Below, piece after piece: positions 8,867 through 27,104 of a stretch of DNA of 28,057 nucleotides. Location: the IMG/VR virus record IMGVR_UViG_3300042014_000056, positions 1 to 28,057 of that record, one strand, 5' to 3'. This DNA is from a virus. Under the pieces are notes generated by a model. That model searched no databases. It saw only the letters and a program-made list of their open reading frames with translations, and was not told the DNA's origin. The position numbers were made by a program, and so were the translations under genes. Each line of letters begins with the position of its first letter. Position 1 is the stretch's first letter.

Positions 8867-9210
8867 TACTCATTTTCCAGGAGGGTAAACCTGTAATATC
8901 TTTTTTTATGATCGATCAATTCGTAATTGTTCACTTTGAACGTGCGGCCATCAATTATCCAACGCATAGACTTTTTGGTTGTCACCCCATCAATGGCGGT
9001 TTGAAACCGGCATACCCATTCCCATACGGCGTTAATATTAACTTCTGCGCTATTCAGCCCCCGGTTACCTCTTAGCTTTGTTAAATCGCCGCGACATGTG
9101 AGCAGCGTTGTAAAACTATCCTTGAACCCGGCACCCTGCTGAACTGGTGTATTGACCTGCAGTTGGCCAGATTGCCGTAGTTTGCCGATATGGGGGTTGG
9201 TTACAGCCAT
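8866..9210 (-). CDS. Head-tail adaptor (SPP1 gp16 / Phage_H_T_join-like)
   Basis: The 114-residue protein follows the connector gene. It has the pattern of head-closure adaptor proteins: a short basic N-terminus, VWEWVCRFQTAI, then MRWIIDGRTFKVNNYELID and a closing RYYRFTLLENE. This parallels the 'r.i.y.g..y.I..i...d...r.l.l.c' signature of the family. It would stack on the portal-bound connector ring and close the filled head. The gene overlaps the connector by 10 bp. Family assignment is good from pattern and order together. Confidence 0.82.
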   Translation of the reverse strand: MAVTNPHIGKLRQSGQLQVNTPVQQGAGFKDSFTTLLTCRGDLTKLRGNRGLNSAEVNINAVWEWVCRFQTAIDGVTTKKSMRWIIDGRTFKVNNYELIDHKKRYYRFTLLENE

Positions 9211-9794
9211 GTTAGTCGTCTATGTTTTGCGGCGAACAATTCAAGTGCTTCATCCAATCCCCGGGCCCGCTGTTGGCCACCCTGTAAGCTCGTTAACGGC
9301 TCATCGCCTTTGTGTTCGTAGCAATAAGCGCATATTCGCTTGAGATCTAGAATCAAGTCTTTTGGAACTTTAGCCGCAGCATAACCAGCAGTATAAACCA
9401 GCTTATACCGACCCGAGCTAAATGGCCGGAATACCTTAAACCCATTATCAATACCATCTATCTCAAAATCCGTATTTGCCGTTTGGGCCTCATACGATCC
9501 GGTGCCAGTCTTTAATGAGGCTGAAGTGAATGTGGCTACCGGTCCATATGGAAATTCGCGCTCACAATAATAATCTGCGAATACGGTAACCGTTTTGCTG
9601 ACAAGGCTAATGCAACAAAACTGCTCTATCGCCTGTCGGCAGGAAACAATAAGATCAGTCAGGTACGTATCATCATCAGTGTAAGTAATCTGCAAATGAG
9701 CCTTTAATTGTGACAGGGTAAGAAAGTCTGCGCCTGTCTCATCAAACTGGACATCATAAATCTTATTATCCTGATATCGTGGTAAGTAGGTCAT
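9201..9794 (-). CDS. Head-tail connector (gp6-like)
   Basis: The 197-residue product matches gp6-like head-tail connectors: FLTLSQLKAHLQITYTDDDT, then YLTDLIVSCRQAIEQFC near the N-terminus, followed by a beta segment and the family-typical GRYKLVYTAGYAAAKVPKDL before a C-terminal helix with hydrophobic and charged residues. It forms a ring under the portal. Its ATG overlaps the stop of the upstream GT4 gene by 4 bp (9791-9794). In related phages this gene lies close behind the capsid gene. Here it is separated from it by the glycosylation island. Confidence 0.92.
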   Translation of the reverse strand: MTYLPRYQDNKIYDVQFDETGADFLTLSQLKAHLQITYTDDDTYLTDLIVSCRQAIEQFCCISLVSKTVTVFADYYCEREFPYGPVATFTSASLKTGTGSYEAQTANTDFEIDGIDNGFKVFRPFSSGRYKLVYTAGYAAAKVPKDLILDLKRICAYCYEHKGDEPLTSLQGGQQRARGLDEALELFAAKHRRLTWL

Positions 9795-10861
9795 AAATAA
9801 GTGTACCTCCTTAAGTTGTTTTGTGGCTTATTGCTGATAACGGCGTTGCGCAAAAACTGTTCAACATCTGCAAGCCCTTTCTGCGGATCAAGTTCCCGAC
9901 TCCGAGCCCGGCACTTATCACTGACTACCTTGTAATATTTCTTATCGTTATCCAGCTTGTTAATTTGTTTAACAAGGTACGAAATATCGTAAGTATCACG
10001 GTCATCTTTTGTTATGATCCAATTAACATCGCGCTCCGGTTCTTCCCTGGCGGGGATATAAATTCCTGCATCCGCGCAGTTTTCCTTTAGTCCATCTGTG
10101 GGTGTGCATATAACCGGGATGCCGTTACACATTGCCTCGGTTGCAGTCATACCCCAGCTTTCGTAACGAGATAACATCAACAAAATACGGGTCTGTGTGT
10201 ACACTTCCAATATGTTGGGTGTGTTAGGAATAACTTTAACATTCGGTGGAAAGTTGGTTGCCTGGCCGAAGTAGTGGGGCTCACTGTAACTACCCTTCAC
10301 AGCCAAAAACTTTTTATTTGGCAGCGCTTCGGCCAATCTGCGCAGGATAAACCCGCCTTTATTCTCGTCCAGGTTGATCAGGGTTATATATTCGTTTTCA
10401 CGTGGAAATTTACCTAAATCGAAATAACGGTTGTCGATAGGTGGTGTAAATACCATTGACGGCCATTGATAGTTCAGCTTTTGTTGAATCCAGCGGCTGT
10501 TGTAGATACAGTAATTATTGCGCCGGGCGCCTTTAATGCATTCATAAGGGTGGGAATTATGGATCACGTTTACAACCGGTTTATTGATCGCCTCTGCAAT
10601 TCCGATAGTGTGGTGGGTAAAATCCAGATGCGTTAATAGACAATCCGCCCATAGGAATTGATCTGTAGATCCGTTAGGGCCGAAGACATCAACTCCGTCA
10701 ATATTATACGGCACTTTCACATTATGCATGACCGCCTGCTGCAGCACCACTCGAACGTTATGCCCCTTACTTACGAAGTACTTATTGATGTTATGGGCGT
10801 AATATTCTGAGCCGCAATTGTGGCCGGGTGGGTATAGATGGATATTCCAAAGGATGTTCAT
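9791..10861 (-). CDS. GT4-family glycosyltransferase
   Basis: The 356-residue protein has a GT-B architecture. The N-terminal Rossmann part starts MNILWNIHLYPPGHNCGSEYYA, the usual acceptor-side opening of GT4 enzymes (Gly-rich loop after the first strand). The C-terminal nucleotide-sugar domain has LLMLSRYESWGMTATEAM followed by NGIPVICTPTDGLKENC, which is the EX7E-type motif of the family. It would transfer a sugar from a nucleotide donor with retention of configuration. No signal peptide or membrane anchor is visible, so it is probably cytosolic. It overlaps the fucosyltransferase-like gene upstream and the connector gene downstream by 4 bp each. Donor and acceptor are unknown. Confidence 0.9.
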   Translation of the reverse strand: MNILWNIHLYPPGHNCGSEYYAHNINKYFVSKGHNVRVVLQQAVMHNVKVPYNIDGVDVFGPNGSTDQFLWADCLLTHLDFTHHTIGIAEAINKPVVNVIHNSHPYECIKGARRNNYCIYNSRWIQQKLNYQWPSMVFTPPIDNRYFDLGKFPRENEYITLINLDENKGGFILRRLAEALPNKKFLAVKGSYSEPHYFGQATNFPPNVKVIPNTPNILEVYTQTRILLMLSRYESWGMTATEAMCNGIPVICTPTDGLKENCADAGIYIPAREEPERDVNWIITKDDRDTYDISYLVKQINKLDNDKKYYKVVSDKCRARSRELDPQKGLADVEQFLRNAVISNKPQNNLRRYTYL

Positions 10862-11676
10862 GAGAGTACTTTTTGTTGTTCATAATCAATTACCGTCCAG
10901 TCGTGGCAGTATATATCTTTACCTGTTATGTTTGTATACTTCGGCCCGAACCAGGGGGATGGCGCAATAACTCGCTTGTCTTTTGCCTCACCCAATATGG
11001 CAGCCATGGCGCTATAGCTGCTATTGCCGATGATAAAGTGCCGGCAGGATTTCATAAACCGGAAATCTGAAATATAATCGCCCCCTGACGGTGTTATCTG
11101 CCCATCCTTCCATTGAATGCCCTGGCGCTTTAATTCAGTTTTTAGCTTGAATGAAAAATCCCAGTCATCGCTAAACAATATGAACTCCTGGTTAGGAGGG
11201 AATTGCTTAATTGCTTCTACATAGTAGCTCATGGGCATGATTGGGTGGTAAGCATTGTCGTAGTCGCCTGCGCGGTAATGAATAGCGCAAACGTCCTGCA
11301 ATCCAGGCTCATCCTTCATCCGCATATAGTACTTTACTTCATCGAAGCAATGGGCGAAGTATTTTAGTGATTGAAAATGCCCGGACAGGTTCCAGTTACC
11401 CGGGCCTAACCTCACGTTCTGATAACCCCACTCAACCGGCTGATCAATCCACCGGACGCCATTGGGCATAGCCGGGAGCGGATTCTTAAAGTACTTCCCG
11501 ACATCAATATCCTCATTGCTGCCAAAGCGTTCCTTATGATCTAGGTTAACCAGCGGTTTGAAAACCGGCTGCAATCCGTTCTTACGGGCAACTCCGATGA
11601 CGCCGGCCACCTGGAACAGCATATTTGCAAATCGGCCGTAGTTACCGATGGCGGTCATAGTACAGTAGCCTTTCAT
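10858..11676 (-). CDS. GT11-family (alpha-1,2-fucosyltransferase-like) glycosyltransferase
   Basis: The 272-residue product has the GT11 motifs in order: NYGRFANMLFQVAGVIGVA (12-30; GRLGNQMFQ in relatives), LSGHFQS (97-103), HYRAGDY (133-139; HxRRGDY in relatives), FSDD (168-171) and FIIGNSSYSAMAAIL (214-228; NSSFSWW in relatives). These enzymes transfer fucose from GDP-fucose. The second Arg of the HxRRGD motif is Ala here, a position important for donor binding, so specificity or activity may differ. It overlaps the 88-residue gene upstream and GT4 downstream by 4 bp each. An N-terminal start at Met7 is possible but the overlap favours Met1. Confidence 0.9.
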   Translation of the reverse strand: MKGYCTMTAIGNYGRFANMLFQVAGVIGVARKNGLQPVFKPLVNLDHKERFGSNEDIDVGKYFKNPLPAMPNGVRWIDQPVEWGYQNVRLGPGNWNLSGHFQSLKYFAHCFDEVKYYMRMKDEPGLQDVCAIHYRAGDYDNAYHPIMPMSYYVEAIKQFPPNQEFILFSDDWDFSFKLKTELKRQGIQWKDGQITPSGGDYISDFRFMKSCRHFIIGNSSYSAMAAILGEAKDKRVIAPSPWFGPKYTNITGKDIYCHDWTVIDYEQQKVLS

Positions 11677-11939
11677 CGATACATCTTTTCAACTTTAGAA
11701 ATTTTATACACCCCTGATTCATCCTGATCGATAATAACATCGTACTGTGGCGTTACACACCCCTCTTCCCTTTCATCAAACAGTTCGCTTATCCCTATGT
11801 ACTCTATATGTCCTTCATGCCACATCATTTCAGCTCGTAGTGGGATGAATTTTGAGAACAGCAAATGAATAACCTCAGGCTTGTTTTCGATGATGTCTGT
11901 AGCAATTAAGACCTTACCTATCCGCTTGTTTTTTATCAT
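11673..11939 (-). CDS. Unknown 88-residue protein opening the GT11-GT4-connector operon
   Basis: The protein begins with basic residues (MIKNKRIGKVLIATDII), has a central MMWHEGHIEYIGISELFDE stretch with two His residues, and ends in a beta-like YDVIIDQDESGVYKISKVEK. I recognise no family. It is the first gene after the double hairpin at 11974-12048 and overlaps the GT11 gene by 4 bp, heading a chain of translationally coupled genes down to the tail terminator. A short alternative frame starts at 11955 (13 codons) and overlaps this start, which may affect initiation. Confidence 0.7.
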   Translation of the reverse strand: MIKNKRIGKVLIATDIIENKPEVIHLLFSKFIPLRAEMMWHEGHIEYIGISELFDEREEGCVTPQYDVIIDQDESGVYKISKVEKMYR

Positions 11940-11973
11940 AAACAGTACTTTTCATATGTCAGTCTTGTTAAAT

Positions 11974-12048
11974 AAAAAAAGGGACACCAAACCTTTCGAT
12001 TTGATGCCCCTTATATATTTTCAACCGGGCTTATTTCGGTTATCCGTC
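11974..12048 (-). terminator. Two-hairpin intergenic element, copy 2 (inside the island)
   Basis: On the minus strand a hairpin AACCG / CGGTT (12023-12041) with AAGCC in its loop precedes a stem GGGGCATCAAATC / GGTTTGGTGTCCC (11982-12011 or so) closed by a GAAA loop and followed by seven T residues. Three U-G pairs on this strand would be mismatches on the plus strand. It is a convincing rho-independent terminator and the second copy of the element seen at 7651 and 20690. Confidence 0.85.
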
Positions 12049-12067
12049 TTGTGATTTAGGTCTACTC

Positions 12068-12742
12068 TTAATCCTTTTTAAACGGCTTAAGCATTTCTGC
12101 AGTAACTTCCATGTACCCTGCAATGTTATGCAGCCAATCGCATTTAAAATACTCATGGAAGTTTTTCACTCCATCTCCCTTAACCTCCGGAAATAGCTTT
12201 CTGTATTGCTTATCGACAAAGACAAGGTTACCGGTGTGGGCCAGCAGAAAGTATCCTTTCTCGATTGCCAATTTCACCATAGGTAAATAACCGGCGCCCC
12301 CTTCACTATTGAACCGGTCGGCATCCGGCGGAATGCTGCTATCGATCTCGATGATCACCACCTTTGGCTTTGCCTCCATTGCCCGGAATATTTGGAAGTC
12401 GATCCCGTCAACATCAATACTTACCACATCGCACGATTCATCAACAAACGCATTCACATTGCCAGGGTTTACCATGCTACAAGTTGACTTAACACGGTCA
12501 TTGCCCTGCCAGTTCTTGCAACATTGTTCCCATAGGTCATAGTCAGCTTCGATGAACTTGCCAGACCAGCCCTGATCGATTAGCAGGGCAGTATTTGAAA
12601 GCCATCGGCCGTCATGGCCTCCGAACTCGCAACATTCCCCCTTATCGATCTTTAGACGTTTCATTACCTCAATCAATAATTTTTCTTCGCCATTTTGGCT
12701 ATAAGTGACGTTGCCGCCGTACTTGTTATAAAATGTCAGCAT
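12068..12742 (-). CDS. FkbM-like SAM-dependent methyltransferase
   Basis: The 224-residue protein has a motif-I-like ECCEFGGHDGRWLSNT (37-51), an acidic strand end FIEADYDL where the SAM ribose would bind, and VVSIDVDGIDFQIF, corresponding to the D-x-E/D-G segment of FkbM enzymes. The family methylates sugar hydroxyls or glycan ends. The order and spacing differ somewhat from the second FkbM gene at 13116, so these are paralogues or separately acquired. It is preceded by a short GC stem (12751-12766) and followed by the double hairpin at 11974-12048, so it appears as a single-gene unit. Substrate unknown; a sugar is inferred from the neighbours. Confidence 0.8.
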   Translation of the reverse strand: MLTFYNKYGGNVTYSQNGEEKLLIEVMKRLKIDKGECCEFGGHDGRWLSNTALLIDQGWSGKFIEADYDLWEQCCKNWQGNDRVKSTCSMVNPGNVNAFVDESCDVVSIDVDGIDFQIFRAMEAKPKVVIIEIDSSIPPDADRFNSEGGAGYLPMVKLAIEKGYFLLAHTGNLVFVDKQYRKLFPEVKGDGVKNFHEYFKCDWLHNIAGYMEVTAEMLKPFKKD

Positions 12743-12750
12743 ATAAGAAA

Positions 12751-12766
12751 GCCCCTATTCAGGGGC
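12751..12766 (-). terminator. Short GC stem-loop before the methyltransferase gene
   Basis: GCCCC TGAATA GGGGC on the minus strand is followed by TTTCTTAT and then the ATG at 12742. The stem lies 6 bp after the preceding stop codon. It fits a weak terminator or a stabilising leader stem. It does not have the AAGCCCGG companion hairpin of the repeated element. Confidence 0.6.
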
Positions 12767-12771
12767 GTTGT

Positions 12772-13086
12772 TTACTTTTTTCCTTCCGGCTGCTTCTCCT
12801 CAGCCTCTTTTGCCTTCTTCTGATACCCGTCCCTTAAAGTATCATAATGGCTTGTGTTACCCTCCTGGCCCACACTGAATGAATTGGCATCAGCGCCTGC
12901 AGCGGTTTGTAAATCGCGGATAAGATCCAATCTTTCTTTAATTGGTAGCTGGCTGATCATATTAATGATCTCGGCCTTGTCTACCTTTTTGCCTTCAGGT
13001 TTTTTACCATCAGGCTGCTTACCTGCATCGTTCTGTTGCAGTTCTTCGTTTGTAACGGAGGCGTTAATTTGACGTTCTTGTTCCAT
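12772..13086 (-). CDS. Charged low-complexity protein of unknown function
   Basis: The 104-residue protein is rich in Lys, Glu and Gln, with near-repeats of QPDGKKPEGKK (about residues 23-34) and a final KQPEGKK. A helical middle (EIINMISQLPIKERLDLIRDLQTAA) could form a small folded domain. There is no signal peptide or membrane segment. It lies between the two FkbM-like methyltransferase genes. I do not recognise it. Disordered linkers with a helix of this kind occur in phage scaffolding and assembly factors, but nothing here proves that. Confidence 0.65.
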   Translation of the reverse strand: MEQERQINASVTNEELQQNDAGKQPDGKKPEGKKVDKAEIINMISQLPIKERLDLIRDLQTAAGADANSFSVGQEGNTSHYDTLRDGYQKKAKEAEEKQPEGKK

Positions 13087-13115
13087 AAAATTATTTATGG
13101 GAAGTTACGCAATAA

Positions 13116-13697
13116 TCACGCCTTCAATTGCCAGTTCTCCCAACAAAAAGGATAGTGCCAGGTAAGGGAATGTGTTTCACTTAACTTAGCGGCAATCTCT
13201 TTATACCATCGCTCATATGGCACCCCGGCGATTTGATGAAATTGCACCTGAATGTTTTTAATACGGGTGTGTAAACCGGCACCAATGATGTGATGTAAAA
13301 GGTCGTATTCCGCGCCTTCAATATTTATCTTAAGTAGCACAATTTCATTAAATTGTCCCAGTACTTCATTTATATCGAAGCACTCATATTCATGATCACC
13401 GGTTTCGAAGGTGCTGCTATAGTATGCCCTGCCGCCGAATGATATTTTACCGTCATGCGTCCCGGCCGCCTTGTTTATAATAAACCCATATTTAAAATCT
13501 CTAATGTATTCGGTTGGCTCAACTGCTATTATATGACTCCCATAGCGTTTGTATATTTCAGTCGCCCACTCCCCCTGATAGGCGCCCAAATCGATCACGA
13601 TACTTTCAGGCTTCAAGTCATATTCATACCTGATATGTTCCAGGTTCTCATGCTGCCATGCAGCCAGGGAGTTTTCGTTGAGGGTTACTTTGCTCAT
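13116..13697 (-). CDS. FkbM-family methyltransferase
   Basis: The 193-residue product shows the FkbM pattern clearly: SIVIDLGAYQGEWATEIYK (32-50, SAM-binding motif I), IIAVEPTEYI (56-65, acidic/Pro motif after strand 2), a central NEIVLLKINIEGAEYDLL (K-I-D/N-x-E-G-x-E in the family) and a C-terminal VQFHQI segment. FkbM enzymes O-methylate sugars or sugar-like hydroxyls. It overlaps by 4 bp the 57-residue gene upstream, which itself overlaps the GT-A gene, so transferase and methyltransferase are translated together. In the LKINIEG motif Asn replaces the more usual Asp. Confidence 0.9.
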   Translation of the reverse strand: MSKVTLNENSLAAWQHENLEHIRYEYDLKPESIVIDLGAYQGEWATEIYKRYGSHIIAVEPTEYIRDFKYGFIINKAAGTHDGKISFGGRAYYSSTFETGDHEYECFDINEVLGQFNEIVLLKINIEGAEYDLLHHIIGAGLHTRIKNIQVQFHQIAGVPYERWYKEIAAKLSETHSLTWHYPFCWENWQLKA

Positions 13698-13867
13698 GGG
13701 TAAATTTTTATTACCATATCAATATTTACTCGAAACGGCAACCCGTTGACCAAAACAAGGTAACCGGTTTCAGCAACTCCTTTCCCATAATCCATAAGGA
13801 TAGTATCAATTACATCGCCCTCCATGGTTACTCCATTGTACTCAAATTTCATTGTTTTGCCTATCAT
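13694..13867 (-). CDS. Small unknown protein (57 residues) coupling GT-A and methyltransferase genes
   Basis: The frame fills an otherwise empty 165-bp gap. Its ATG (13867) overlaps the glycosyltransferase stop by 4 bp and its TGA (13694) overlaps the methyltransferase ATG by 4 bp, strong evidence for a real translated gene. The sequence looks like a small beta barrel or SH3-like fold: KFEYNGVTMEGDVIDTIL, then GYLVLVNGLPFRVNIDMV. No function recognised. It may be a partner of the adjacent enzymes. Confidence 0.78.
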   Translation of the reverse strand: MIGKTMKFEYNGVTMEGDVIDTILMDYGKGVAETGYLVLVNGLPFRVNIDMVIKIYP

Positions 13868-14649
13868 AACATTCCAGGGTATTTAGATTTAAAATATTTC
13901 TGCATATGCCGGTTAAGGTCGTCGGTTGTGGCGAAGTCGTTATTTCTCATTCGGTGATGGTGAAACAATACGGGGTAAGTGTCGGTGTAACCTGTTTTCT
14001 CATAGGTAAAGTTGCCCGCGTTGTACATGGCTGGCCACCAGTGGAGCGGCACGTTATGCCTTATTGCTAGACATGTGATAACTGCTTGATCGTGCCGATG
14101 TTCTTGAAACTCAGGATGGTTAGGTAATTTACTTGAGCTGTCGTCAATTATACCCGGCTGGTAACACCACTTCAACCAATCATTAACGAAAAGCCTTGAA
14201 TACACTGTATTTCTGATTACAATTACGCTTGCTTGCGCTTGCTTGCCCTGGTAGTTATAGTATTGATTGCTTAGAATCGGAATAAACGCATCGGCCTTGC
14301 ACCAATGAACGTGTTGAAACTTATTCCCGAACAGCCATATATCATCAGTCATCCGGTCTATAATGTGGTTGATGTTGTTGATGATCTCCACCCCGGCGTC
14401 GCAATAGATCAGTATATCGCAATCGTTCATTTTCTTTAGCTCCTGATCTATGAAATACGGTTTCCACAACCAGTACCCGCAACCTCTTGGCTGATCCAGT
14501 ATAGCAGCATTTGCCTTGCTAAACTTGGCGTCAATTTCTTTAGGGCCGTATACTTTCACCTCATGCACATTGTTCTGTAATGCACTCGCCTCACAGATTT
14601 TCGCTGCGATCGTCATGTTATCGTCGGTGAATGTGATGAGGTGGGTCAT
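13864..14649 (-). CDS. GT-A-type glycosyltransferase with a DxG/DxD-like motif
   Basis: The 261-residue protein begins with a strand-turn HLITFTDD and has QPRGCGYWLWKPYFIDQEL (53-71) followed by CDILIYCDAGVEI (77-89). This pairing of 'RG(C/Y)GYW(L/I)WKP' with 'D(I/V)L(I/L)Y(L/C)DAG' is typical of a glycosyltransferase family from capsule and O-antigen loci, where the acidic pair binds metal and nucleotide-sugar. Later HRHDQAVITCLAIRHNV and FHHHRMRNND are further conserved-looking stretches. No membrane anchor. It overlaps upstream and downstream genes by 4 bp each. Donor sugar cannot be told from sequence. Confidence 0.82.
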   Translation of the reverse strand: MTHLITFTDDNMTIAAKICEASALQNNVHEVKVYGPKEIDAKFSKANAAILDQPRGCGYWLWKPYFIDQELKKMNDCDILIYCDAGVEIINNINHIIDRMTDDIWLFGNKFQHVHWCKADAFIPILSNQYYNYQGKQAQASVIVIRNTVYSRLFVNDWLKWCYQPGIIDDSSSKLPNHPEFQEHRHDQAVITCLAIRHNVPLHWWPAMYNAGNFTYEKTGYTDTYPVLFHHHRMRNNDFATTDDLNRHMQKYFKSKYPGML

Positions 14650-15089
14650 AAAATGTCATCTTTTAAATCATCCAGCATCACTTCTTCCCCCTGACTAACA
14701 CTCTTTTCCTTAACGTATGCTGAATGTTTGAAAACAGAAATTACTACTACCTGGGTGCCAACGGCAAAACGATGCCCGCTGATATTGCCCACAATTGTTG
14801 CAAAAGGACCTATCTTACGTTTAGTCTTCCATTGCTGATGAAAAATGATATTTCGTAACGCATCTAGGTTCTTAAGACGTCTCGCTCTTCTCAAATGGGC
14901 GCGAAAACAATACCATGGCAATGGAGTTGTTACGAATAAATGTTTTACATGTGATATTGACACCTCAATCAAATCCAAATACTCTTGCATGGTTAACTTG
15001 CCAGAGCAATACTTTGCATAAAACAACTGATCAAACAGATGAGCGGCTGCCCAGTCTAGTGTATTATTCGGTTTACGAAAGTCAATCAT
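14646..15089 (-). CDS. Unknown island protein, helical N-terminus and small beta-barrel-like C-terminus
   Basis: The start at 15089 (Met of MIDFRKPNN) overlaps the stop of the membrane-protein gene by 4 bp, so it is preferred to a Met 17 codons upstream inside that gene. The 147-residue product has a helical N-terminal domain and a basic patch RAHLRRARRLKN near the middle. The C-terminal part GHRFAVGTQVVVISVF resembles the small SH3-like modules found in many phage hypothetical proteins. No enzyme motif is evident. It is coupled to the GT-A gene by a 4-bp overlap. Confidence 0.68.
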   Translation of the reverse strand: MIDFRKPNNTLDWAAAHLFDQLFYAKYCSGKLTMQEYLDLIEVSISHVKHLFVTTPLPWYCFRAHLRRARRLKNLDALRNIIFHQQWKTKRKIGPFATIVGNISGHRFAVGTQVVVISVFKHSAYVKEKSVSQGEEVMLDDLKDDIL

Positions 15090-15301
15090 TCGGCTACTAT
15101 TTTTAAATACCCACAAAACACAAATATTGCAAACCCACATGGGATGAACCTAGAGCCTAGTAACCCACTAGCTGTTACCATCCCGCCGCTTTCCTTCAGC
15201 TGATCTACCCACCATTCGGCGACTGACTGGCCGATACACCGTGCAATACCTGCGAAGCAAAGAGCTATTAGTATGTGTCTGATTAGGTTCATGTTCACCA
15301 T
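15086..15301 (-). CDS. Small membrane protein in the island
   Basis: Two hydrophobic helices are visible, at about residues 5-22 (LIRHILIALCFAGIA) and 50-66 (FIPCGFAIFVFCGYL), joined by a polar loop WWVDQLKESGGM, giving a hairpin of 71 residues. The start at 15301 overlaps the ligase stop (ATGGTGA). An alternative Met at 15292 gives 68 residues. It is the only predicted membrane protein of the island. It could anchor the cytosolic transferases, modify lipid-linked sugar handling, or be a holin-like or superinfection protein; no choice can be made from sequence. Confidence 0.65.
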   Translation of the reverse strand: MVNMNLIRHILIALCFAGIARCIGQSVAEWWVDQLKESGGMVTASGLLGSRFIPCGFAIFVFCGYLKIVAE

Positions 15302-15861
15302 TTAAAACCGAAGTCTTTTTTCTTAATCTTTACCATGCGGCCGTCGGGGTGGTGCCAGACGATACCTTCATAGTGTAATTCCTCCAAAAATCTTTTGACT
15401 GTTCCAAAGGTTACGCCACCAGGAAAATAAATCTTTTCCTGCCCGTGCTTTATAAGCTCGTATTTACCCCAACCCTCTATATTTCCGTTTATCTTCGGCC
15501 CAATTAATTCATAGGTTCCATCAGGTACCAAACGGTCGATGTAGGATACTGCCGTTTCGGCATACCCTTGCACGAAATACTTGTCTTCTGGCCCTATACC
15601 TACCTTTAACCAGCCGGGCCAGTGACCAGTAACCGGGTCTGGATCCTGAGCAGGCATGAAGCCATCGGGCGGTGTCTTACCATTCTTTGCATCATAACGT
15701 TTATACAACTCGCCATCCTTAATCATACAGCACGTACCATCCCATTTGCGCGTTGCGATTCCTTCACCGTTCAATACCCATTCAGCGCCGGGCGTTACTT
15801 CGTTGCGCACCAATCGGTCGCCGTCGTAATTACGTTGAAAGAGTGAAATGATTTTTTGCAT
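15295..15861 (-). CDS. Minimal RNA ligase / nucleotidyltransferase (RNA ligase 1-like, DUF5565-type)
   Basis: The 188-residue protein contains the covalent nucleotidyltransferase motifs in order: motif I KWDGT (39-43, Lys39 the AMP acceptor), RYDAKNGK (55-62), motif III-like GTYELIGPKINGN (115-127), motif IV EGIVWH (165-170) and motif V MVKIKKKDF (176-184). It has essentially only the adenylation domain, with no accessory C-terminal domain. Such ligases seal nicked RNA, and in phages can undo host anticodon-nuclease cuts. No partner kinase/phosphatase lies nearby. It stands between glycosyltransferase genes and small unknowns, in the middle of the virion operon, which is unusual. Confidence 0.85.
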   Translation of the reverse strand: MQKIISLFQRNYDGDRLVRNEVTPGAEWVLNGEGIATRKWDGTCCMIKDGELYKRYDAKNGKTPPDGFMPAQDPDPVTGHWPGWLKVGIGPEDKYFVQGYAETAVSYIDRLVPDGTYELIGPKINGNIEGWGKYELIKHGQEKIYFPGGVTFGTVKRFLEELHYEGIVWHHPDGRMVKIKKKDFGFKW

Positions 15862-15879
15862 GTTACACCAAGTTCATTT

Positions 15880-16113
15880 TTAATTAATCAACTTTTCTTC
15901 CACGATATCCCATCCGCCGCCTTTCACCTTTAGAAATCCATACCCCTGAAACGCATGTACTCTTTCTCTTACCGTGAACTTGCTTACTATTATATATTTC
16001 TCCAACCATATGAGCTTGTCGCCTACCTTTTTTGGCCACCAAGCAAATTCCTTTTCTTCTCGGGTGTCACCCTCTTTCGGCTTTGTTTTTATGGCGATAG
16101 TCTTCAATCTCAT
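15880..16113 (-). CDS. Unknown 77-residue basic protein
   Basis: The protein opens with MRLKTIAIKTKPKEGDTREE, followed by FAWWPKKVGDKLIWLEKY, and ends GGGWDIVEEKLIN. Its Trp-rich, basic beta character is similar to small phage proteins adjacent to adenylation ligases or glycosyltransferases, but I recognise no family. Its ATG at 16113 overlaps the upstream 87-residue gene stop by 4 bp. Function unknown. Confidence 0.68.
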   Translation of the reverse strand: MRLKTIAIKTKPKEGDTREEKEFAWWPKKVGDKLIWLEKYIIVSKFTVRERVHAFQGYGFLKVKGGGWDIVEEKLIN

Positions 16114-16373
16114 ATCATACCATTTGGATTGCCTTTTACAATACCCCCCTCAATGAAAGAAGGCGCAGCTATATCATTAAGATCTTTACCGGTATTTGTT
16201 AGTTCAATACTACTTAAAACTCGAATTCCCTCCCTAGCAAGAATCATATTCTGTAAGGCATGAATATGAAATCGAAACTCGTTTTGATCATCAGGGTGAA
16301 TCATTGGCAATTGAAGGAATGCATTCCATACTTCACTTATGGCTGATATAGTTTTTAATTCCGGCGTAGTCAT
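16110..16373 (-). CDS. Unknown helical protein of a widespread phage family
   Basis: The 87-residue product contains LPMIHPDDQNEFRFHIHALQ and NMILAREGIR, a helix-rich pattern that I associate with small conserved phage proteins of unknown function (LPxxHPxDxxxFxxxxHxxQNxIxxR). It overlaps the GT25 gene stop and the 77-residue gene start by 4 bp. Position suggests only co-translation with island genes. No catalytic motif is visible. Confidence 0.7.
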   Translation of the reverse strand: MTTPELKTISAISEVWNAFLQLPMIHPDDQNEFRFHIHALQNMILAREGIRVLSSIELTNTGKDLNDIAAPSFIEGGIVKGNPNGMI

Positions 16374-16966
16374 ACAAGTTTCATTTGACTGTTCTTAAAT
16401 ATTTCCTCATAGTTCACCACCTCATTCCAGATAGCCGACTTACGGGGCCGCTGGTAGGCAAGGAATGGCTTGCACACGTAGGCTTTCCAATCTTTCAACT
16501 GTGAGCCCAACCAATTATCAAACATCATTTCGCTTTCACCCGGGTGATTGTCCAGTATAAACTTCACAATCGGCTTACGATATACAACTGCGTGCGTAGT
16601 CCAGCAGTCGGTAACCCGGTAGATGTGTTGGCTTATCCTTTGTGGCTTCTCATCCCGGATATTGGCGCCTAAGTAAAATATATCAAAGTCTTTGGGTAGT
16701 TCTTTCAACACTTGCGGCAGTAGATGAAGGTTACGAAAATCACAATCATCTTCAAGGAATAACAGCGTGTGGTCTTTGCTGTCGTAGAACTCCTGCAGGA
16801 TGGCGTAGGTGGAAAGGTTAAATGATTGATGGGGACCAATCGATGGAATTGCCTGGAAAGGATTTGCCTTCAGTCCTACGGCGTTGAACTCAGCCTGGGC
16901 TAATGTCCATTCATCGCCACCGAGGGTGAGGCAGGTGATGCAGTCAAAGAATTGCCAGTTGTTCAT
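16370..16966 (-). CDS. GT25-family (LPS-type) glycosyltransferase
   Basis: The 198-residue protein follows the GT25 layout: GPHQSFNLSTYAILQEF (44-60; acceptor/donor helix), LLFLEDDCDF (68-77; the LEDD motif that binds metal), DIFYLGAN (95-102), AVVYRKP (126-132) and a C-terminal KPFLAYQRPRKSAIW. GT25 enzymes transfer galactose or related sugars to lipopolysaccharide cores and, in other systems, to collagen-like hydroxylysine. It overlaps the first island gene by 4 bp and the next one downstream by 4 bp. No signal peptide. Acceptor unknown. Confidence 0.88.
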   Translation of the reverse strand: MNNWQFFDCITCLTLGGDEWTLAQAEFNAVGLKANPFQAIPSIGPHQSFNLSTYAILQEFYDSKDHTLLFLEDDCDFRNLHLLPQVLKELPKDFDIFYLGANIRDEKPQRISQHIYRVTDCWTTHAVVYRKPIVKFILDNHPGESEMMFDNWLGSQLKDWKAYVCKPFLAYQRPRKSAIWNEVVNYEEIFKNSQMKLV

Positions 16967-17238
16967 CCTTTGCCTCCCATATAATTGTCTGTCTGTGTAA
17001 TTTCCCTTAATCGATCTTCCTGCATTCTCATCGCTGCAAGGCCGTCGCCACTCAATACATGTTCAGCGCATTTAAAATGCGGATCATAAACAATTTCAAC
17101 CTCAGTTTTTTCGACATTATCGCCAAAAACAAGTACGGTAAACTCATCTGCCACCCTGGTCCTTATCTTTTCTGATATCTCCTGCATTCGCAGGGGTGGC
17201 ACAGAATGTGGTATACGTATAACTAATAGTCTTTTCAT
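16963..17238 (-). CDS. Unknown 91-residue protein, first gene of the accessory island
   Basis: The frame is open from 17391, but the start at 17238 (MKRLLVIRIPHSVPP) is chosen because the upstream 51 codons run through a terminator-like hairpin pair and an AT-rich stretch ending TTTTTTG-TTTT just before the ATG. The protein is an alpha/beta type with LLVIRIPHSV as the first strand and TVLVFGDNVEKTEVEIVYDP. It ends at a 4-bp overlap with the GT25 gene. Not recognised. It probably works with the sugar-transfer genes behind it, an inference from overlap only. Confidence 0.72.
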   Translation of the reverse strand: MKRLLVIRIPHSVPPLRMQEISEKIRTRVADEFTVLVFGDNVEKTEVEIVYDPHFKCAEHVLSGDGLAAMRMQEDRLREITQTDNYMGGKG

Positions 17239-17245
17239 AAAACAA

Positions 17246-17330
17246 AAAACCGGCTTCTCATCTTGGGAATGATCCGCCGGCGTTTGACTTCTTAAAAGCC
17301 GTTCGCGCTTCCCAAGTGGCGTGAACGGAT
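17246..17330 (-). terminator. Double hairpin with complementary loops between capsid gene and island
   Basis: Read on the minus strand, hairpin A has a CCGTTC/GAACGG stem (17299-17304 with 17323-17328) extended by CGC/GCG, with a loop CACTTGGGAA. Hairpin B (17250-17280) has a CCGGC/GCCGG outer stem, a GGA/GAA internal loop, a TCAT/ATGA inner stem and the 7-base loop TCCCAAG, and is followed by TTTTTTG. The loop of B is fully complementary to CTTGGGA in the loop of A. Hairpin B is a good rho-independent terminator. The loop pairing suggests a kissing interaction or alternative folding. Confidence 0.7.
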
Positions 17331-17393
17331 TACTTATACAAAGGACGTAATTGTAATCGACCTGTAAAATGTTAAATACACCACATTGCAAAG

Positions 17394-17419
17394 AATCCCA
17401 GGTTTTAAGACCCGGGATT
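17394..17419 (-). terminator. Terminator-like hairpin after the major capsid gene
   Basis: On the minus strand AATCCCGGG (TCTTAAAA) CCTGGGATT forms a 9-bp stem with one G-U pair, beginning 29 bases after the capsid stop codon. It is followed by CTTTG, so the T-run is poor. It could attenuate read-through into the island or protect the capsid mRNA 3' end. Confidence 0.65.
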
Positions 17420-17448
17420 CGATATAAAACACTTACTAACTGCTATGA

Positions 17449-18675
17449 CTATGTTGTTCCGGCTGTCATCCAGGTGAAGGCATCCGTTCTCAGTGTAGCC
17501 AGGGCCACACGGGCTTCAGCTTTCACCGTAATGAGGTTACGTTGCACATTGTCGCTGTCCTGCTCGTACATGTTCACGTTCAGCCCTTCAGTTTGAATGA
17601 TGGCCGCCTTGGTGAAGTCGCCTAACAGGATGCGATCGTTACCAATGTTGGATGCGTTTGTTTTGAAAACAGGCACGCCCACGATTGCCACATCCCCGTT
17701 TGGAGTAATGGTTACGCCACCAGGTATGCTGTAATCATTCGGCTTTGTCTTTAGTATCTTAGCCCACACCTGATTGGTAACCACGATACCATTAACGTCG
17801 TAATCGCGATCTTCAAGGTTAGCAATGGTCTCGATCACCTTTTCAACAGTTACTGTTGATGTGCCGGCTGTTCCAGTAGCAGCAGAATACAATGCCCCAA
17901 AGAACTTGTTATCTTCAGTACGCAGGTAATCTTCTACCAGCTCGTTCGATACAAAGCTCTGCATGAAAGGCAAATCCTGCAACATCTGTTTGGCGATACG
18001 CACGAAGCCAGCCAGATAGTCAACTGTAACGGTTACTTCGGTGAAGTCGTAATCCAATTGCTCCTTTAAGTTGCCGTGAGTGGTCTGGAAATCGAAAGAG
18101 CCCTCACCAGCAGGTATATTCTGACGGTAGAACTTCCACAAGCCGGTTGCTGACGGGATAACATTCAACAGGTCCCGGATGTGGAGCTTGCGACGAGCGC
18201 GCAAAGCAGGCTGACTGGCATAAGTAGCCTGAACGCTTCCAGTCAAGTTAGCAGAAGCGGTCATGTTGCCAACGGCCTTCACTTTGAATTTGTGCTGGGC
18301 AACAGGTTCATTGGCCTGTTCCTTTATCTTGGCAAACTCTTCAGCAAAGGCATCTTTCAGGAGTTTGCGGGTGCTTTCAACTCCTTCGCCATCTTCGCCA
18401 GTTACCGGGCGACCACGACGGGCTTTGATTTCCTGCAGTTCGTCCTGCATTTGTTTGAGGGTGGCGCCTTTCGCCGCTACTTCGGTATTGATTTTTTCAA
18501 CCTCTTTGTTGAGGTTGTCAAACCATTCTTTGGCTTCAGCTTGCTTTTCGGCTAATTCCTTTTCAGTAATAGCGCTATCCGCTTTTGCCTTGATATCTTC
18601 AAGGGCTTTTTTGTTTTTGGTTTTGAACTCGCCAAAATCTTTGACGAGGCCTTCGACCAGCTCTAAATCTTCCAT
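17449..18675 (-). CDS. Major capsid protein (HK97 fold)
   Basis: The 408-residue protein has the HK97 arrangement: an N-terminal charged coiled coil (about residues 1-100; LEDIKAKADSAITEKELAEK and following) that acts as a delta scaffold domain and is removed by the protease encoded upstream; then the mature part with RKLHIRDLLNVIPSATG, YDFTEVTVTVDYLAGFVRI (P-loop/E-loop region) and the C-terminal NLITVKAEARVALATLRTDAF. The processing site is probably near residues 130-160 but is not certain. The gene follows the prohead protease and ends before hairpins at 17394 and 17246. This is a major structural product and a plausible acceptor for the glycosyltransferases that follow. Confidence 0.94.
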   Translation of the reverse strand: MEDLELVEGLVKDFGEFKTKNKKALEDIKAKADSAITEKELAEKQAEAKEWFDNLNKEVEKINTEVAAKGATLKQMQDELQEIKARRGRPVTGEDGEGVESTRKLLKDAFAEEFAKIKEQANEPVAQHKFKVKAVGNMTASANLTGSVQATYASQPALRARRKLHIRDLLNVIPSATGLWKFYRQNIPAGEGSFDFQTTHGNLKEQLDYDFTEVTVTVDYLAGFVRIAKQMLQDLPFMQSFVSNELVEDYLRTEDNKFFGALYSAATGTAGTSTVTVEKVIETIANLEDRDYDVNGIVVTNQVWAKILKTKPNDYSIPGGVTITPNGDVAIVGVPVFKTNASNIGNDRILLGDFTKAAIIQTEGLNVNMYEQDSDNVQRNLITVKAEARVALATLRTDAFTWMTAGTT

Positions 18676-24254: not shown

Positions 24255-25688
24255 TCACATTGCCACCCAGGAAAGTTGGGGGGCTAATTCGAACCATTCC
24301 CGCATCATTAAGCTGTCAGCAAAGTCAGGGGATCGGCCAATTGCAGCTTTAATCTTGTCCTTTGGCAATACCTGTTTTTTAGTATCCTTGTCCATATTGT
24401 ATTGTTTAACCCACTCTAATTCCTCAATAATCATCTGCCGAATGTCCGGATCATCACACTCAATATATACTCCGCCTTTATTTATCCTCTCAGCCAGACG
24501 GAAGTAGCACTGATCCTTTAAAGAGCGGTAATTCTCATCCTCTCCTGTTATTGGGTTTTCTAGCGGCGAGCTATTATTTACAAAACCATAACAGCCTAAC
24601 AGATCTACCAGACCTCCCCCTACGCCATCTTCATCACAAATTATACGGCTGGCCGGGATATTGTTGTTATTTTTTATCTCTTTTATATTTTCCCATGATT
24701 CAGTTATTCGCTTTTTTTCATACCACTTAATTTTCCCTCGCCAGCCTTCCCATGTAACAACTACGATTTTATCGCTCCCTAGCCGCGCTACATCAGCACT
24801 TATATAGCCATCACCTTTAAGACTTTCAAAGTCATTGGTAAAAATATCAAGGATTTTATCGAATTCAATCAATGCGTCAGGGCTGTCGTCGTACTCCCAG
24901 TTGCCATAACGTAACCTTTGCTTTTGCGGGCCTTCGGGCAATCTATCAAGTAATTGAACATACGCGGCAGGGGCATAAGGATTATCTGTTACAAAAGCCT
25001 GAACGTATTTTTTATACGACACCAACTTACCTTCTTTATTCGGCCGATAAAATTCCTGGTAAGGCCATGTTTTAACCGGGTTAGAAGCGTACAGGGCTTT
25101 GGGTATTAACCCCCCAGTTTCGCCCTTACACGATTCACACAGCCACTTTATTGGCTTTTCCTCAGCATTAAATAATAATGGAACTGCGTTATGAAGTTTT
25201 GAGCCGCATCTGTCACAAAAGCTCAGGAAGCGGATACGGCTATTTAATGTATCCTTACCTTTTTGACTAACTTGGCCGCACTCGTCAATAAACAAGTCTG
25301 TAATTTCCAATGAGCCTAATTCGTCAAAGTCGGGGTCACTAGGAGAATCGGCTAGGTCCCGTAGATATATCATACTCTCGTTCTCAAACATGATACAGTT
25401 AGGGTTCTCTTTATCATGTGAACCGGTAAGATCAAAGTGTCTACCCCTTTTAAGTCCCTGTTTTTGGGCGATCTCGAAGAATGTTTTAAGCGTAGTGTCC
25501 TTTAGTGTCTTAAAAACTGCGCGCCCGATAAACCCCCGAGATCCTGGATATTTGAATCGACGCTTCAGTTGCCAGTAGCTGCCAAGTGCCGACTTCGCAC
25601 CACCTGCTGCCCCTCCATACATAAGTTGTTCTGTTATGGCATCCTCTAAATAATCGAGGGCAATGGTTTGTTTTTTGGTCAGTTTCAT
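24255..25688 (-). CDS. terL: Large terminase subunit, with a zinc ribbon in the ATPase domain
   Basis: The 477-residue protein has Walker A YGGAAGGAKS (residues 24-33), Walker B DLFIDE (131-136) and a coupling motif ALYASNP (199-205). The nuclease domain has SADVARLGSDK (297-307), ICDEDGVGGG (350-359) and SPDFADSL (453-460) with the expected acidic residues for RNase H-like metal binding. It packages DNA with the portal. Between Walker B and motif III there are CDRC (158-161) and CESC (184-187), a zinc-ribbon-like insert seen in some terminases of this type. Overlaps the small subunit by 4 bp. Confidence 0.95.
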   Translation of the reverse strand: MKLTKKQTIALDYLEDAITEQLMYGGAAGGAKSALGSYWQLKRRFKYPGSRGFIGRAVFKTLKDTTLKTFFEIAQKQGLKRGRHFDLTGSHDKENPNCIMFENESMIYLRDLADSPSDPDFDELGSLEITDLFIDECGQVSQKGKDTLNSRIRFLSFCDRCGSKLHNAVPLLFNAEEKPIKWLCESCKGETGGLIPKALYASNPVKTWPYQEFYRPNKEGKLVSYKKYVQAFVTDNPYAPAAYVQLLDRLPEGPQKQRLRYGNWEYDDSPDALIEFDKILDIFTNDFESLKGDGYISADVARLGSDKIVVVTWEGWRGKIKWYEKKRITESWENIKEIKNNNNIPASRIICDEDGVGGGLVDLLGCYGFVNNSSPLENPITGEDENYRSLKDQCYFRLAERINKGGVYIECDDPDIRQMIIEELEWVKQYNMDKDTKKQVLPKDKIKAAIGRSPDFADSLMMREWFELAPQLSWVAM

Positions 25689-26059
25689 TCACCCTGCTTC
25701 GTTTCGTACGTTTTTTCTTCATGCCATACAACAGGCATGGCGCCTGTGATCTCCTGCTCAGTCTTGTCTTTCCATCCCATATTCTTTAACGCGAATATGG
25801 CACCTGTGGGCGATTGAGCGGTAGATAGCCGCTTTTCGTACTCGCACTCTACCCGCAATCGGGCGTTTTTTATAATGTAAGAAAACTGACCATCTTCTTC
25901 GTAGTCGTATATAGATTGACGAGATTCAAAACCTATATTCAAGGCTAAACCGGTAATTGTTGCCGGTTCTTTATTTTCTTTAATATATGCAAAATAGCCC
26001 TCCACTGCTCTCTGCAGATCTTCAGGCGCATCATATATTCTCGGTCTTCCCCCTGCCAT
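25685..26059 (-). CDS. terS: Small terminase subunit (gp3-type DNA packaging protein)
   Basis: The 124-residue protein matches the gp3-like small terminase pattern: GRPRIYDAPEDLQRAVEGYF (4-23), then ATITGLALNIGFESRQSIYD, a winged/HTH-like helix pair, FSYIIKNARLRVECEYEKRL and GAIFALKNMGWKDK. It recognises the packaging site and stimulates TerL. It lies directly upstream of terL with a 4-bp overlap, and its start overlaps the endonuclease stop by one base (TAATG). The C-terminal tail is short. Confidence 0.9.
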   Translation of the reverse strand: MAGGRPRIYDAPEDLQRAVEGYFAYIKENKEPATITGLALNIGFESRQSIYDYEEDGQFSYIIKNARLRVECEYEKRLSTAQSPTGAIFALKNMGWKDKTEQEITGAMPVVWHEEKTYETKQGE

Positions 26060-26874
26060 TATTTATATTTGAATATGTAACCCTTATGTTGTTTTTGATA
26101 CCCTCTTGCCACTTTTGCGACAGAAGCTTCATGCAAACCTAATCGCTGTGCTGCGGCTTTAGCAGACTGGTATTCAATGCCATTATTCAGACAAATAAGC
26201 TGTTTTTCTTTATGCTCGCGCATTTTGCTTTTAGCTTCTGCTGTATGCGTTTTACCATAAAAACTATTACTATTCCCTGCCGCGCCAGTTATGCCTTTAT
26301 TCCAAGGTGCTACCCCATGTTCGAATTTTCTTGCAACCTTGTTCAAGGACAGCAGTTTCCTCTCTCTATTAATCTTTTGAACCTCGACTGCCCCGATTTC
26401 TTTGTTCAGCCTGCGCAATAAAGTGTTATGGCTTATTTTATATTTCACTGCAAGTTCACTCATTGATGCCCCTGCGGCGTATTGGTCTTTAATTGCATCA
26501 ATTGGCAACTCTTTGCGTTCTCTGCCCTTGAGCGAAATACTTTGCCTAATCCTTGTTTCCCTGCTCAATGCTCCGTTACTGCCACCTGACTTAATATTAA
26601 GCATTTTATACCCGCAATTGTTATGCACTTCTATATAGAGGCGCTCATATGTATCTAAAACTTCTTTAGAAGCATCCCCGGGTAATTCATGAATAATTTG
26701 GAAGGTGTGCGCTTTACATCCGTATTTCAATAACGAGCGGTAAAGCTTGCGTTGTGAAAGGCAATTCAGGTCCTTGTATCTTTTAAAACGAGCATTTACA
26801 TTGACTGATTGCCCAATGTAAACCCGTCCAGTAGGTGAGGTTATTTTATATATTCCTGTGATCCTATCTGCCAT
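26059..26874 (-). CDS. GIY-YIG homing-type endonuclease
   Basis: Starting at Met 26874 (the frame is open to a GTG at 26889) the protein has TGIYKITSPTGRVYIGQS (6-23) with the GIY and YIG motifs, catalytic Arg29 (NARFKRYKD) and Glu77 in TYERLYIE, plus Asn93 (MLNIKSGG), the fold of GIY-YIG nucleases. Residues about 125-150 (DAIKDQYAAGASMSELAVKY) and KKYKISHNTLLRRLNKE-like region form a helix-turn-helix that likely binds DNA, with NUMOD-like basic repeats and a final AKAAAQRLGLHEASVAKVAR. It is free-standing and overlaps terS by 1 bp. No intron is visible around it. Confidence 0.88.
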   Translation of the reverse strand: MADRITGIYKITSPTGRVYIGQSVNVNARFKRYKDLNCLSQRKLYRSLLKYGCKAHTFQIIHELPGDASKEVLDTYERLYIEVHNNCGYKMLNIKSGGSNGALSRETRIRQSISLKGRERKELPIDAIKDQYAAGASMSELAVKYKISHNTLLRRLNKEIGAVEVQKINRERKLLSLNKVARKFEHGVAPWNKGITGAAGNSNSFYGKTHTAEAKSKMREHKEKQLICLNNGIEYQSAKAAAQRLGLHEASVAKVARGYQKQHKGYIFKYK

Positions 26875-26888
26875 ATTCAAAGTTACCA

Positions 26889-27104
26889 CTATTCCGTTTG
26901 TTCTATAGTGTTATTAATTTCACTTAATTTAAGTTTTACTACAAGCTGGGTAATTGTTTTGCAATTATGCTTTGTCTTCAGTCGGTCTACCTGACGTTCC
27001 AGGGTGTACAGTTTCACGCCATTTGTTTTCGCTATGCCGCGAACAGTGCTACCGGTGGCGAGTAGTTCAATCAGTTTTTTAGCTGGTATTTTTGGTTGTC
27101 TCAT
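26889..27104 (-). CDS. Small HTH DNA-binding protein (LuxR/GerE-type)
   Basis: The 71-residue protein consists of little but a helix-turn-helix: KKLIELLATGSTVRGIAKTN, then GVKLYTLERQVDRLKTKHNC and KTITQLVVKLKL. The arrangement is like the C-terminal GerE domain of LuxR regulators (..L..G.s...IA...g.s..TV...r..i..Klg...r.eLv). It lacks a sensor domain. It is placed just before the packaging genes, so it may regulate late genes or serve a packaging-related role. Confidence 0.75.
   Translation of the reverse strand: MRQPKIPAKKLIELLATGSTVRGIAKTNGVKLYTLERQVDRLKTKHNCKTITQLVVKLKLSEINNTIEQTE

Follow-up and report, generated by a model that had tools for sequence, protein, structure and literature searches.

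Glycosylation of virions has so far been reported for a few mycobacteriophages. Virion proteins of Che8, Corndog and Myrna, capsid and tail tube proteins among them, are described as glycosylated (PMC12363180, PMC11256854, PMC11600133, PMC12619734). Che8 gp110 was reported to be essential for capsid glycosylation (PMC12363180), and Corndog gp38 is likewise named as an essential capsid transferase (PMC12363180, PMC11256854, PMC11600133, PMC12619734). In cluster O phages, an O-methyltransferase and three glycosyltransferases are described as modifying both the capsid and the tail tube (PMC11600133). For the chlorovirus PBCV-1 (A064R, A061L, A111/114R, GMD A118R, GMER A295L), viral glycosyltransferases are described as building the oligosaccharide of the major capsid protein (MCP), methyltransferases as capping this glycan and the virus as making GDP-fucose (PMC9614988). 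Here, we analyzed a gene island located between the MCP gene and the head-tail connector gene (9791-17238) of the IMG/VR virus record IMGVR_UViG_3300042014_000056. The window is the whole record, a linear contig of 28,057 bases; since such virus contigs are often fragments, genes beyond the record may go unseen. We consider it likely that six core enzymes of this island (the glycosyltransferases GT25, GTA, GT11 and GT4 and the methyltransferases MT1 and MT2) form a phage-encoded virion-glycosylation pathway, which would build a fucosylated, O-methylated oligosaccharide, most likely on the capsid.

Results

The Island Contains a Conserved Core of Six Enzymes

The late genes of the window are encoded on the minus strand and comprise terminase, portal (PF04860), MuF, protease, MCP, the island, connector, head-completion and tail genes; the names of terminase and tail genes were taken from position and reading of the sequence, not from a family search. 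The gene after the connector matches PF05521. MCP and connector genes are 7,654 bp apart, and all genes in this gap are on the minus strand. The 15 same-strand genes that a previous sequence-only reading had placed here were found in their places as 14 open reading frames (ORFs) of at least 60 amino acids and one 52-amino-acid ORF. Many adjacent island genes share 4-bp overlaps, as do the GT4 stop and the connector start, and the G+C content of the island (0.41-0.45) equals that of its flanks.

A scan with the MCP yielded eight loci. In three of them (L006, L007 and L009) the stretch from MCP to connector holds GT25, GTA, MT2, MT1, GT11 and GT4, in this order; the remaining five are shorter contigs, each with GT25 following the MCP. 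The recurring order is MCP-GT25-GTA-(MT2)-MT1-GT11-GT4-connector, and because relatives repeat this arrangement of six enzymes, the island is more than a chance assembly. Between the window and the three complete loci, GT25 (88-91%) and GT4 (85-90%) are more identical than MCP (75-76%), connector (72-80%) and the remaining four enzymes (72-77%). The dN/dS values of GT25 and GT4 (0.025-0.057; MCP 0.077-0.095) show that both are under strong purifying selection; the other four enzymes are saturated at synonymous sites. In the more distant L037 and L060 the enzymes are 41-60% identical and thus at least as conserved as the head genes (25-47%), whereas in L086 GT25 and GTA (36-40%) fall below the MCP (55%). 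The small island genes are shared patchily among relatives. The sequence-only reading had described an inserted island of 15 genes; these are not a loose insertion but are arranged around a conserved six-enzyme core.

Profile scans with GT4 and GT25 yielded 11 and 41 loci, respectively, and together with local hidden Markov models (HMMs) they revealed the same block in much more distant phages, with GT25 identities down to 45%. After removal of repeats, a head gene was within reach in 37 of the 38 GT25-scan loci; the remaining locus is a 4-kb contig. Among phage isolates, relatives were found for GT4 (two records), GT25 (one) and GTA (eight), all below 60% identity.

Folds and Families of the Core Enzymes

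Sequence support for the window GT25 is weak (phrog_2835, 1.5e-4), and its profile finds COLGALT1 (GT25D1) first among PDB sequences at only 0.02. Its AlphaFold2 model (mean predicted local distance difference test score, pLDDT, 93) matches COLGALT1 with a Z-score of 19.6 (root mean square deviation 2.3, 176 residues aligned). COLGALT1 and mimivirus R655 were the top Foldseek matches, and after realignment both reached Z 16.3-19.6, while every other entry stayed at or below 14.7. The acidic EDD motif (E72, D73, D74) is invariant in 17 of 17 sequences. Judged by this structural model, the GT25 call is confirmed. GT11 (PF01531, 40.6 bits, cut-off 23.9) and GT4 (PF00534, 52 bits, cut-off 26.4) were called correctly as well. 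The HxRxGD motif of GT11 (H133, R135, G137, D138) is invariant in 15/15 sequences, and its profile gave zero matches against PDB sequences; the E-x7-E motif of GT4 is present as ESWGMTATE in 4/4.

The DxD-type GT-A enzyme proposed from sequence is harder to place. GTA had zero matches in Pfam, PHROG and NCBIfam, and its profile found three unrelated, chance-level matches in PDB sequences. The structural search, which was so clear for GT25, gave LgtC as best Foldseek match (4e-5) at a TM-score of 0.40. Other GT-A enzymes are high in the list, but CMP-KDO synthetases are as well; because of this and of the weaker model (pLDDT 74) a GT-A fold is likely, not sure. Residues D84, G86, R185, D187 and Q188 are invariant across 16 sequences. 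Of the two FkbM-like methyltransferases proposed, MT2 exceeds its cut-off (TIGR01444, 41.6 versus 37.7), whereas MT1 is slightly below (PF05050, 22.1 versus 22.7 bits).

Phage DNA glycosyltransferases have been described, and the island enzymes might accordingly glycosylate modified bases of phage DNA. We regard this as highly improbable: a gene of the thymidylate-synthase family is absent from 17 virus records including the window (records that may be fragments), and the genes are located within the head module. GT25, GT11 and FkbM enzymes are not known as usual DNA-modifying families.

A Second Lineage Carries GDP-Fucose Genes

In 11 contigs GT25 is encoded before the protease; up to the contig ends, the order is portal-GT25-GTA-(MT1)-GT11-protease-MCP, and GT4 follows the MCP in six of the contigs. 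A GDP-L-fucose synthase-like gene is present in 10 of the 11 and in the truncated L052; L057 is without it. The L043 copy matches a PDB GDP-L-fucose synthase with 1.8e-108. This gene overlaps GT11 by 4 bp in seven cases and is separated from it by 38 bp in two and by 453 bp in one. In addition, a GDP-mannose 4,6-dehydratase is encoded on the contig of the close relative L006, and proteins 43-47% identical to it are encoded in L122 and L126, which are more distant; the dehydratase family was unmatched in eight other records searched. Since fucose synthase and dehydratase genes accompany the cassettes in relatives, GDP-fucose is the candidate donor for GT11. In the window itself no such donor gene was seen (the GDP-mannose dehydratase family was tested), as the sequence-only reading had noted when it proposed host pools as donor source; in the relatives, donors need not all come from the host. 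L057, L060-L062 and L068 have a different protein ("...EIGPADFPA...") between GTA and GT11, which by eye might be a methyltransferase; the L060 and L068 copies tested were unmatched in Pfam.

Presence and Absence of the Cassette at the MCP-Connector Junction

In the isolates phi10:1, 11b and phi18:1 (MCP 32-35% identical) these enzymes are absent between MCP and connector, the gaps being 372 bp, 1,677 bp (small genes) and 69 bp. Additional loci were recruited with the MuF head gene, so that glycosyltransferases were not themselves the selection criterion. The best 80 of 485 confirmed loci gave 77 new ones, four of them on contigs already in the set; 73 were kept, and 33 of these contain both MCP and connector. 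This sample leans to kin of the cassette, because each of the 13 query proteins was taken from a phage that has cassette genes. GT4 is located between MCP and connector in 16 of the 33 loci and missing in 17, so that the comparison of gene order with and without island suggested by the sequence-only reading could be made: without GT4, MCP and connector are nearly adjacent (36-231 bp in 15 loci; 746 bp with a GIY-YIG-type gene in two). One of the 16 GT4 loci also has GT25, GTA, MT1 and GT11, and five have GT25. When these 33 records were searched independently with Pfam, PF00534 turned up in 16/16 versus 0/17 and the FkbM family PF05050 in 8/16 versus 0/17; being related by descent, the 33 rows are not independent events.

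After removal of repeats, 127 loci were examined in total, 57 of which contain MCP and connector. These comprise 17 GT25-GTA-GT11-GT4 sets, 20 loci whose junction has GT4, either by itself or together with GT25, and 20 without GT4. Only the MuF sample gives a frequency, since the GT4 and GT25 scans select for those genes. GT4 overlaps the connector start or ends at most 8 bp before it in 37/37 loci (assuming the first possible start codon). In minimal cassettes a methyltransferase is often encoded between MCP and GT4 (L026: PF05050, 1.2e-10; L027: Methyltransf_23, 1.8e-9; L024: below the cut-off of most models). On an MCP tree of 60 rows the three cassette labels need six changes, a figure that indicates clustering only, as it comes from a quick method with long-branch warnings.

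Hosts

The full cassette of L068 lies in a metagenome-assembled genome (MAG) of Saprospiraceae (Bacteroidota), and the hosts of the nearest isolates are Cellulophaga and Flavobacterium; for these reasons the main lineage probably infects Bacteroidota. A genome scan with the GT11 profile gave five matches (L067-L071), of which L067, L068 and L069 were annotated. L067 (3-2571) is an MT1-GT11-protease fragment on a contig of a Pyrinomonadaceae (Acidobacteriota) MAG that is otherwise without recognised phage genes, possibly a phage remnant or a contig in the wrong bin. Because of this MAG, hosts outside the Bacteroidota are possible; the L067 or the L068 contig could be misbinned. L069 has a single GT11 and no head gene within 16.5 kb.

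Other Genes of the Island and the Window

All features of the island and its flanks are listed in Table 1.

Table 1. Features between the MCP gene and the head-tail connector gene of the window.
Feature	Position	Strand	Evidence and remarks
Major capsid protein (HK97 type), proposed acceptor	17449..18675	-	PF05065 6e-23
Small gene s16963, likely start Met52 of longer ORF	16963..17238	-	Patchy in relatives
GT25-fold glycosyltransferase, core	16370..16966	-	AlphaFold2 pLDDT 93, COLGALT1 Z 19.6; conserved in relatives
Small gene	16110..16373	-	No Pfam match
Small gene	15880..16113	-	No Pfam match
RNA ligase, probable island passenger	15295..15861	-	phrog_14301 5e-78, PF17720, PDB 9c6l 7.7e-10
Small membrane protein	15086..15301	-	KD19 1.99
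Gene, likely start Met18 of longer ORF	14646..15089	-	phrog_10201 0.0015, family without assigned function
GT-A type glycosyltransferase without family name (GTA), core	13864..14649	-	AlphaFold2 pLDDT 74, LgtC 4e-5
52-amino-acid ORF	13694..13852	-	Read from gap sequence
FkbM-type methyltransferase MT2, core, often present	13116..13697	-	TIGR01444 1.6e-10, PF05050
Small gene	12772..13086	-	No Pfam match
FkbM-like methyltransferase MT1, core	12068..12742	-	PF05050 1.8e-4, slightly below cut-off; conserved in relatives
Terminator-like hairpin between MT1 and GT11 group	11979..12012	-	
Small gene	11673..11939	-	No Pfam match
GT11 (fucosyltransferase family), core	10858..11676	-	PF01531 2.4e-10, phrog_2644 7e-38
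GT4 glycosyltransferase, core, the constant enzyme	9791..10861	-	PF00534 8e-14; 4-bp overlap with connector start
Head-tail connector	9201..9794	-	PF05135 2.7e-8

The adenylation-type ligase that had been counted among the glycan genes was rejected as a glycan enzyme: its PHROG and PDB (RNA ligase 1) matches are RNA ligases, and the glycan island thus harbors an RLIG1-like phage RNA ligase. Apart from the window, only phi10:1 was seen to have this gene. Since the phi10:1 homologue is located upstream of the terminase, the gene looks like a mobile passenger; it is probably outside the glycan pathway and might serve in tRNA or RNA repair. The small membrane protein, described earlier as having two helices, has one clear hydrophobic stretch (Kyte-Doolittle hydropathy, KD, 1.99); the second helix is visible by eye only. 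In L007, positions 14968-17503 between MT2 and MT1 encode a 607-amino-acid and two small proteins without Pfam match, possibly head fibre or decoration proteins.

A GIY-YIG-type (homing) endonuclease-like gene, named by eye and by HMM kinship, is encoded at 26059-26889 of the window. Such genes also lie beside head genes elsewhere, directly after the MCP in L004, L005 and L006, and in L152 and L154 at the very MCP/connector junction that is occupied by the cassette in other loci. The window TerL (24255-25688) has no BLAST match in L006, L007 and L009, relatives in which portal, MuF, protease and MCP share 72-82% identity with the window proteins; as far as these sequences tell, the terminase has been swapped.

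Search for the Acceptor

A C-terminal acceptor tail as reported for mycobacteriophages was looked for by eye in the capsid and tail tube C-termini, and no shared Ser/Thr tail was seen. Capsid-specific rapid change after cassette gain was considered for L116/L120 and L128/L144, which have long stems, and was rejected, as the other head genes are equally divergent. One capsid loop is at least two residues longer, often with Thr, Asn or Ser, in 8 of 9 sampled full-cassette capsids than in the minimal (8/8) and cassette-free (12/12) capsids compared; this loop may mark one clade only and is kept as a lead.

The acceptor might also be another virion protein, such as tail tube, tail fibre, head fibre or a decoration protein, a sub-case of virion glycosylation that overlaps with our preferred reading and that we consider unlikely. 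Mycobacteriophage tail tubes are also reported to be glycosylated (PMC12619734, PMC12363180, PMC11600133), and candidate acceptors are the three additional genes in the L007 island and a gene for 399 amino acids soon after the MCP of L116. Such extra genes are found in few loci only, and the neighbours of the cassette are MCP, protease and connector genes rather than tail genes.

Discussion

From gene content, folds and families, gene order, the tight spacing to head genes and the GDP-fucose genes in relatives we infer acceptor, sugars, step order, late expression and benefit as follows. The core enzymes would be made late along with the head proteins. The soluble transferases would work in the cytoplasm, and their target would be a virion protein, with the MCP, either as assembled shell or as precursor, as the likeliest candidate. 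GT4, common to all cassettes seen at the MCP-connector junction, would probably make the first or core link, and GT25 and the GT-A enzyme would lengthen the sugar chain. GT11 would attach a GDP-linked 6-deoxyhexose (L-fucose being the most likely), and hydroxyls would be capped by the FkbM-type methyltransferases. The glycan might serve as a shield or in adhesion to host or environmental polysaccharide.

The sequence-only reading had left open whether the methylated oligosaccharide is attached to virion proteins or to the host surface, and of the two the virion is the likelier place. Enzymes modifying the host surface polysaccharide late in infection could exclude other phages or free progeny from the receptor. 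GTA homologues occur in 6 of 395 genomes of the class of L068, including the L068 MAG itself and four in which they lie, by eye, beside apparent flippases or other glycosyltransferases. For phi18:1 gp41, a change of lipopolysaccharide is among the roles that its authors proposed; the targets named in their description are lipopolysaccharide, DNA or other biomolecules, and the virion is not singled out there. On the other hand, none of the homologues (51 GT25, 40 GTA, 12 MT2, 39 MT1, 34 GT11 and 51 GT4) passed the hydropathy cut for membrane segments, and the family searches of 14 island ORFs brought up no recognisable flippase, no lipid-carrier transferase and no membrane glycosyltransferase as in serotype-conversion gtr modules. 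Because of these missing features, modification of the host surface is less likely; the enzymes furthermore stay beside head genes in two lineages, and we judge this alternative improbable.

Several points weigh against the virion-glycosylation pathway. The cassette is known here from its genes, which makes the virion glycan a prediction. Cassette-bearing capsids, taken together, share no conserved Ser/Thr tail or insert that would set them apart, and GTA homologues in bacterial chromosomes lie among genes that by eye seem to be for surface polysaccharides. The window GT25 and those of three relatives do not match PF01755 (GT25) at E 0.1, the family to which Che8 gp110 belongs (1.2e-7), and comparing the cassette GT25 profile with the gp110 family gave only a moderate match (hhalign probability 46, E 2e-4 for one pairing; 0.46 for the GTA profile as control), so that the link between the two is suggestive at profile level. 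In addition, the Che8 genes are located near the right genome end, far from the head genes. Finally, the island contains a strong hairpin of terminator type with a promoter-like site after it, which may split its transcription; the hairpin scan of the region, made for the window only, gave 17 terminator-like sites versus 9.6 expected.

While phage virion glycosylation is known, the cassette would be a more elaborate version of it. A wider claim, to which we give even chances, is that a widespread phage group, with a main lineage probably of Bacteroidota, has a virion-glycosylation pathway more elaborate than any known from phages, making a fucosylated, O-methylated multi-sugar glycan on HK97-fold capsids, and that this pathway was gained or lost at one fixed spot beside the capsid gene and is of a design like that of mycobacteriophages and chloroviruses. 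A literature search (open-licence papers, titles and abstract openings) gave no description of this cassette among the matches listed. The cassette suggests that virion glycosylation is widespread and ancient in a further large group of phages, its gene order offers a signature for finding virion glycosylation in metagenomes, and it makes testable why phages outside animals would sugar-coat their heads.

Related arrangements differ in families and position. Cellulophaga phage phi18:1 encodes a methyltransferase (gp40, PF13578) and a glycosyltransferase (gp41, PF04765, TOD1/MUCI70-like) between MuF and protease. It is thus like the cassette in having both activities inside a related head operon and unlike it in that the families are others and MCP and connector are adjacent. 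The GT25 model also resembles the PBCV-1 capsid-glycosylating enzyme in PDB 2p73 (Z 11.3), which we take to be domain 1 of A064R. PBCV-1 is a eukaryotic virus with an N-linked glycan and other enzyme families, and the likeness is an analogy only.

A Che8-gp110-like GT25 gene (34%) is also present in the coliphage mEp390 (Hendrixvirinae; NC_019721.1, 38715-39305), and by sequence likeness such enzymes appear to occur in lambdoid coliphages as well. In the mycobacteriophages, Che8 gp108, encoded beside gp110, is a fusion of GT2 and a TylF-type methyltransferase, and phage Wildflower has a gp110 relative (47%) in the order portal-O-methyltransferase-GT-GT-GT25-protease-MCP (gp33-36), where GT stands for glycosyltransferase. 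Both the mycobacteriophage loci and the cassette cluster glycosyltransferases with a GT25-family enzyme and a methyltransferase (an O-methyltransferase in the mycobacteriophages), and the Wildflower locus, between portal and capsid protease, takes the position of the cassette in the second lineage. The families differ, with GT4, GT11, GT25, GT-A and FkbM methyltransferases in the cassette and GT2/GT25 and TylF-type enzymes in the mycobacteriophages. Unlike the mycobacteriophage loci, the main lineage of the cassette lies between MCP and connector and has relatives with GDP-fucose genes.

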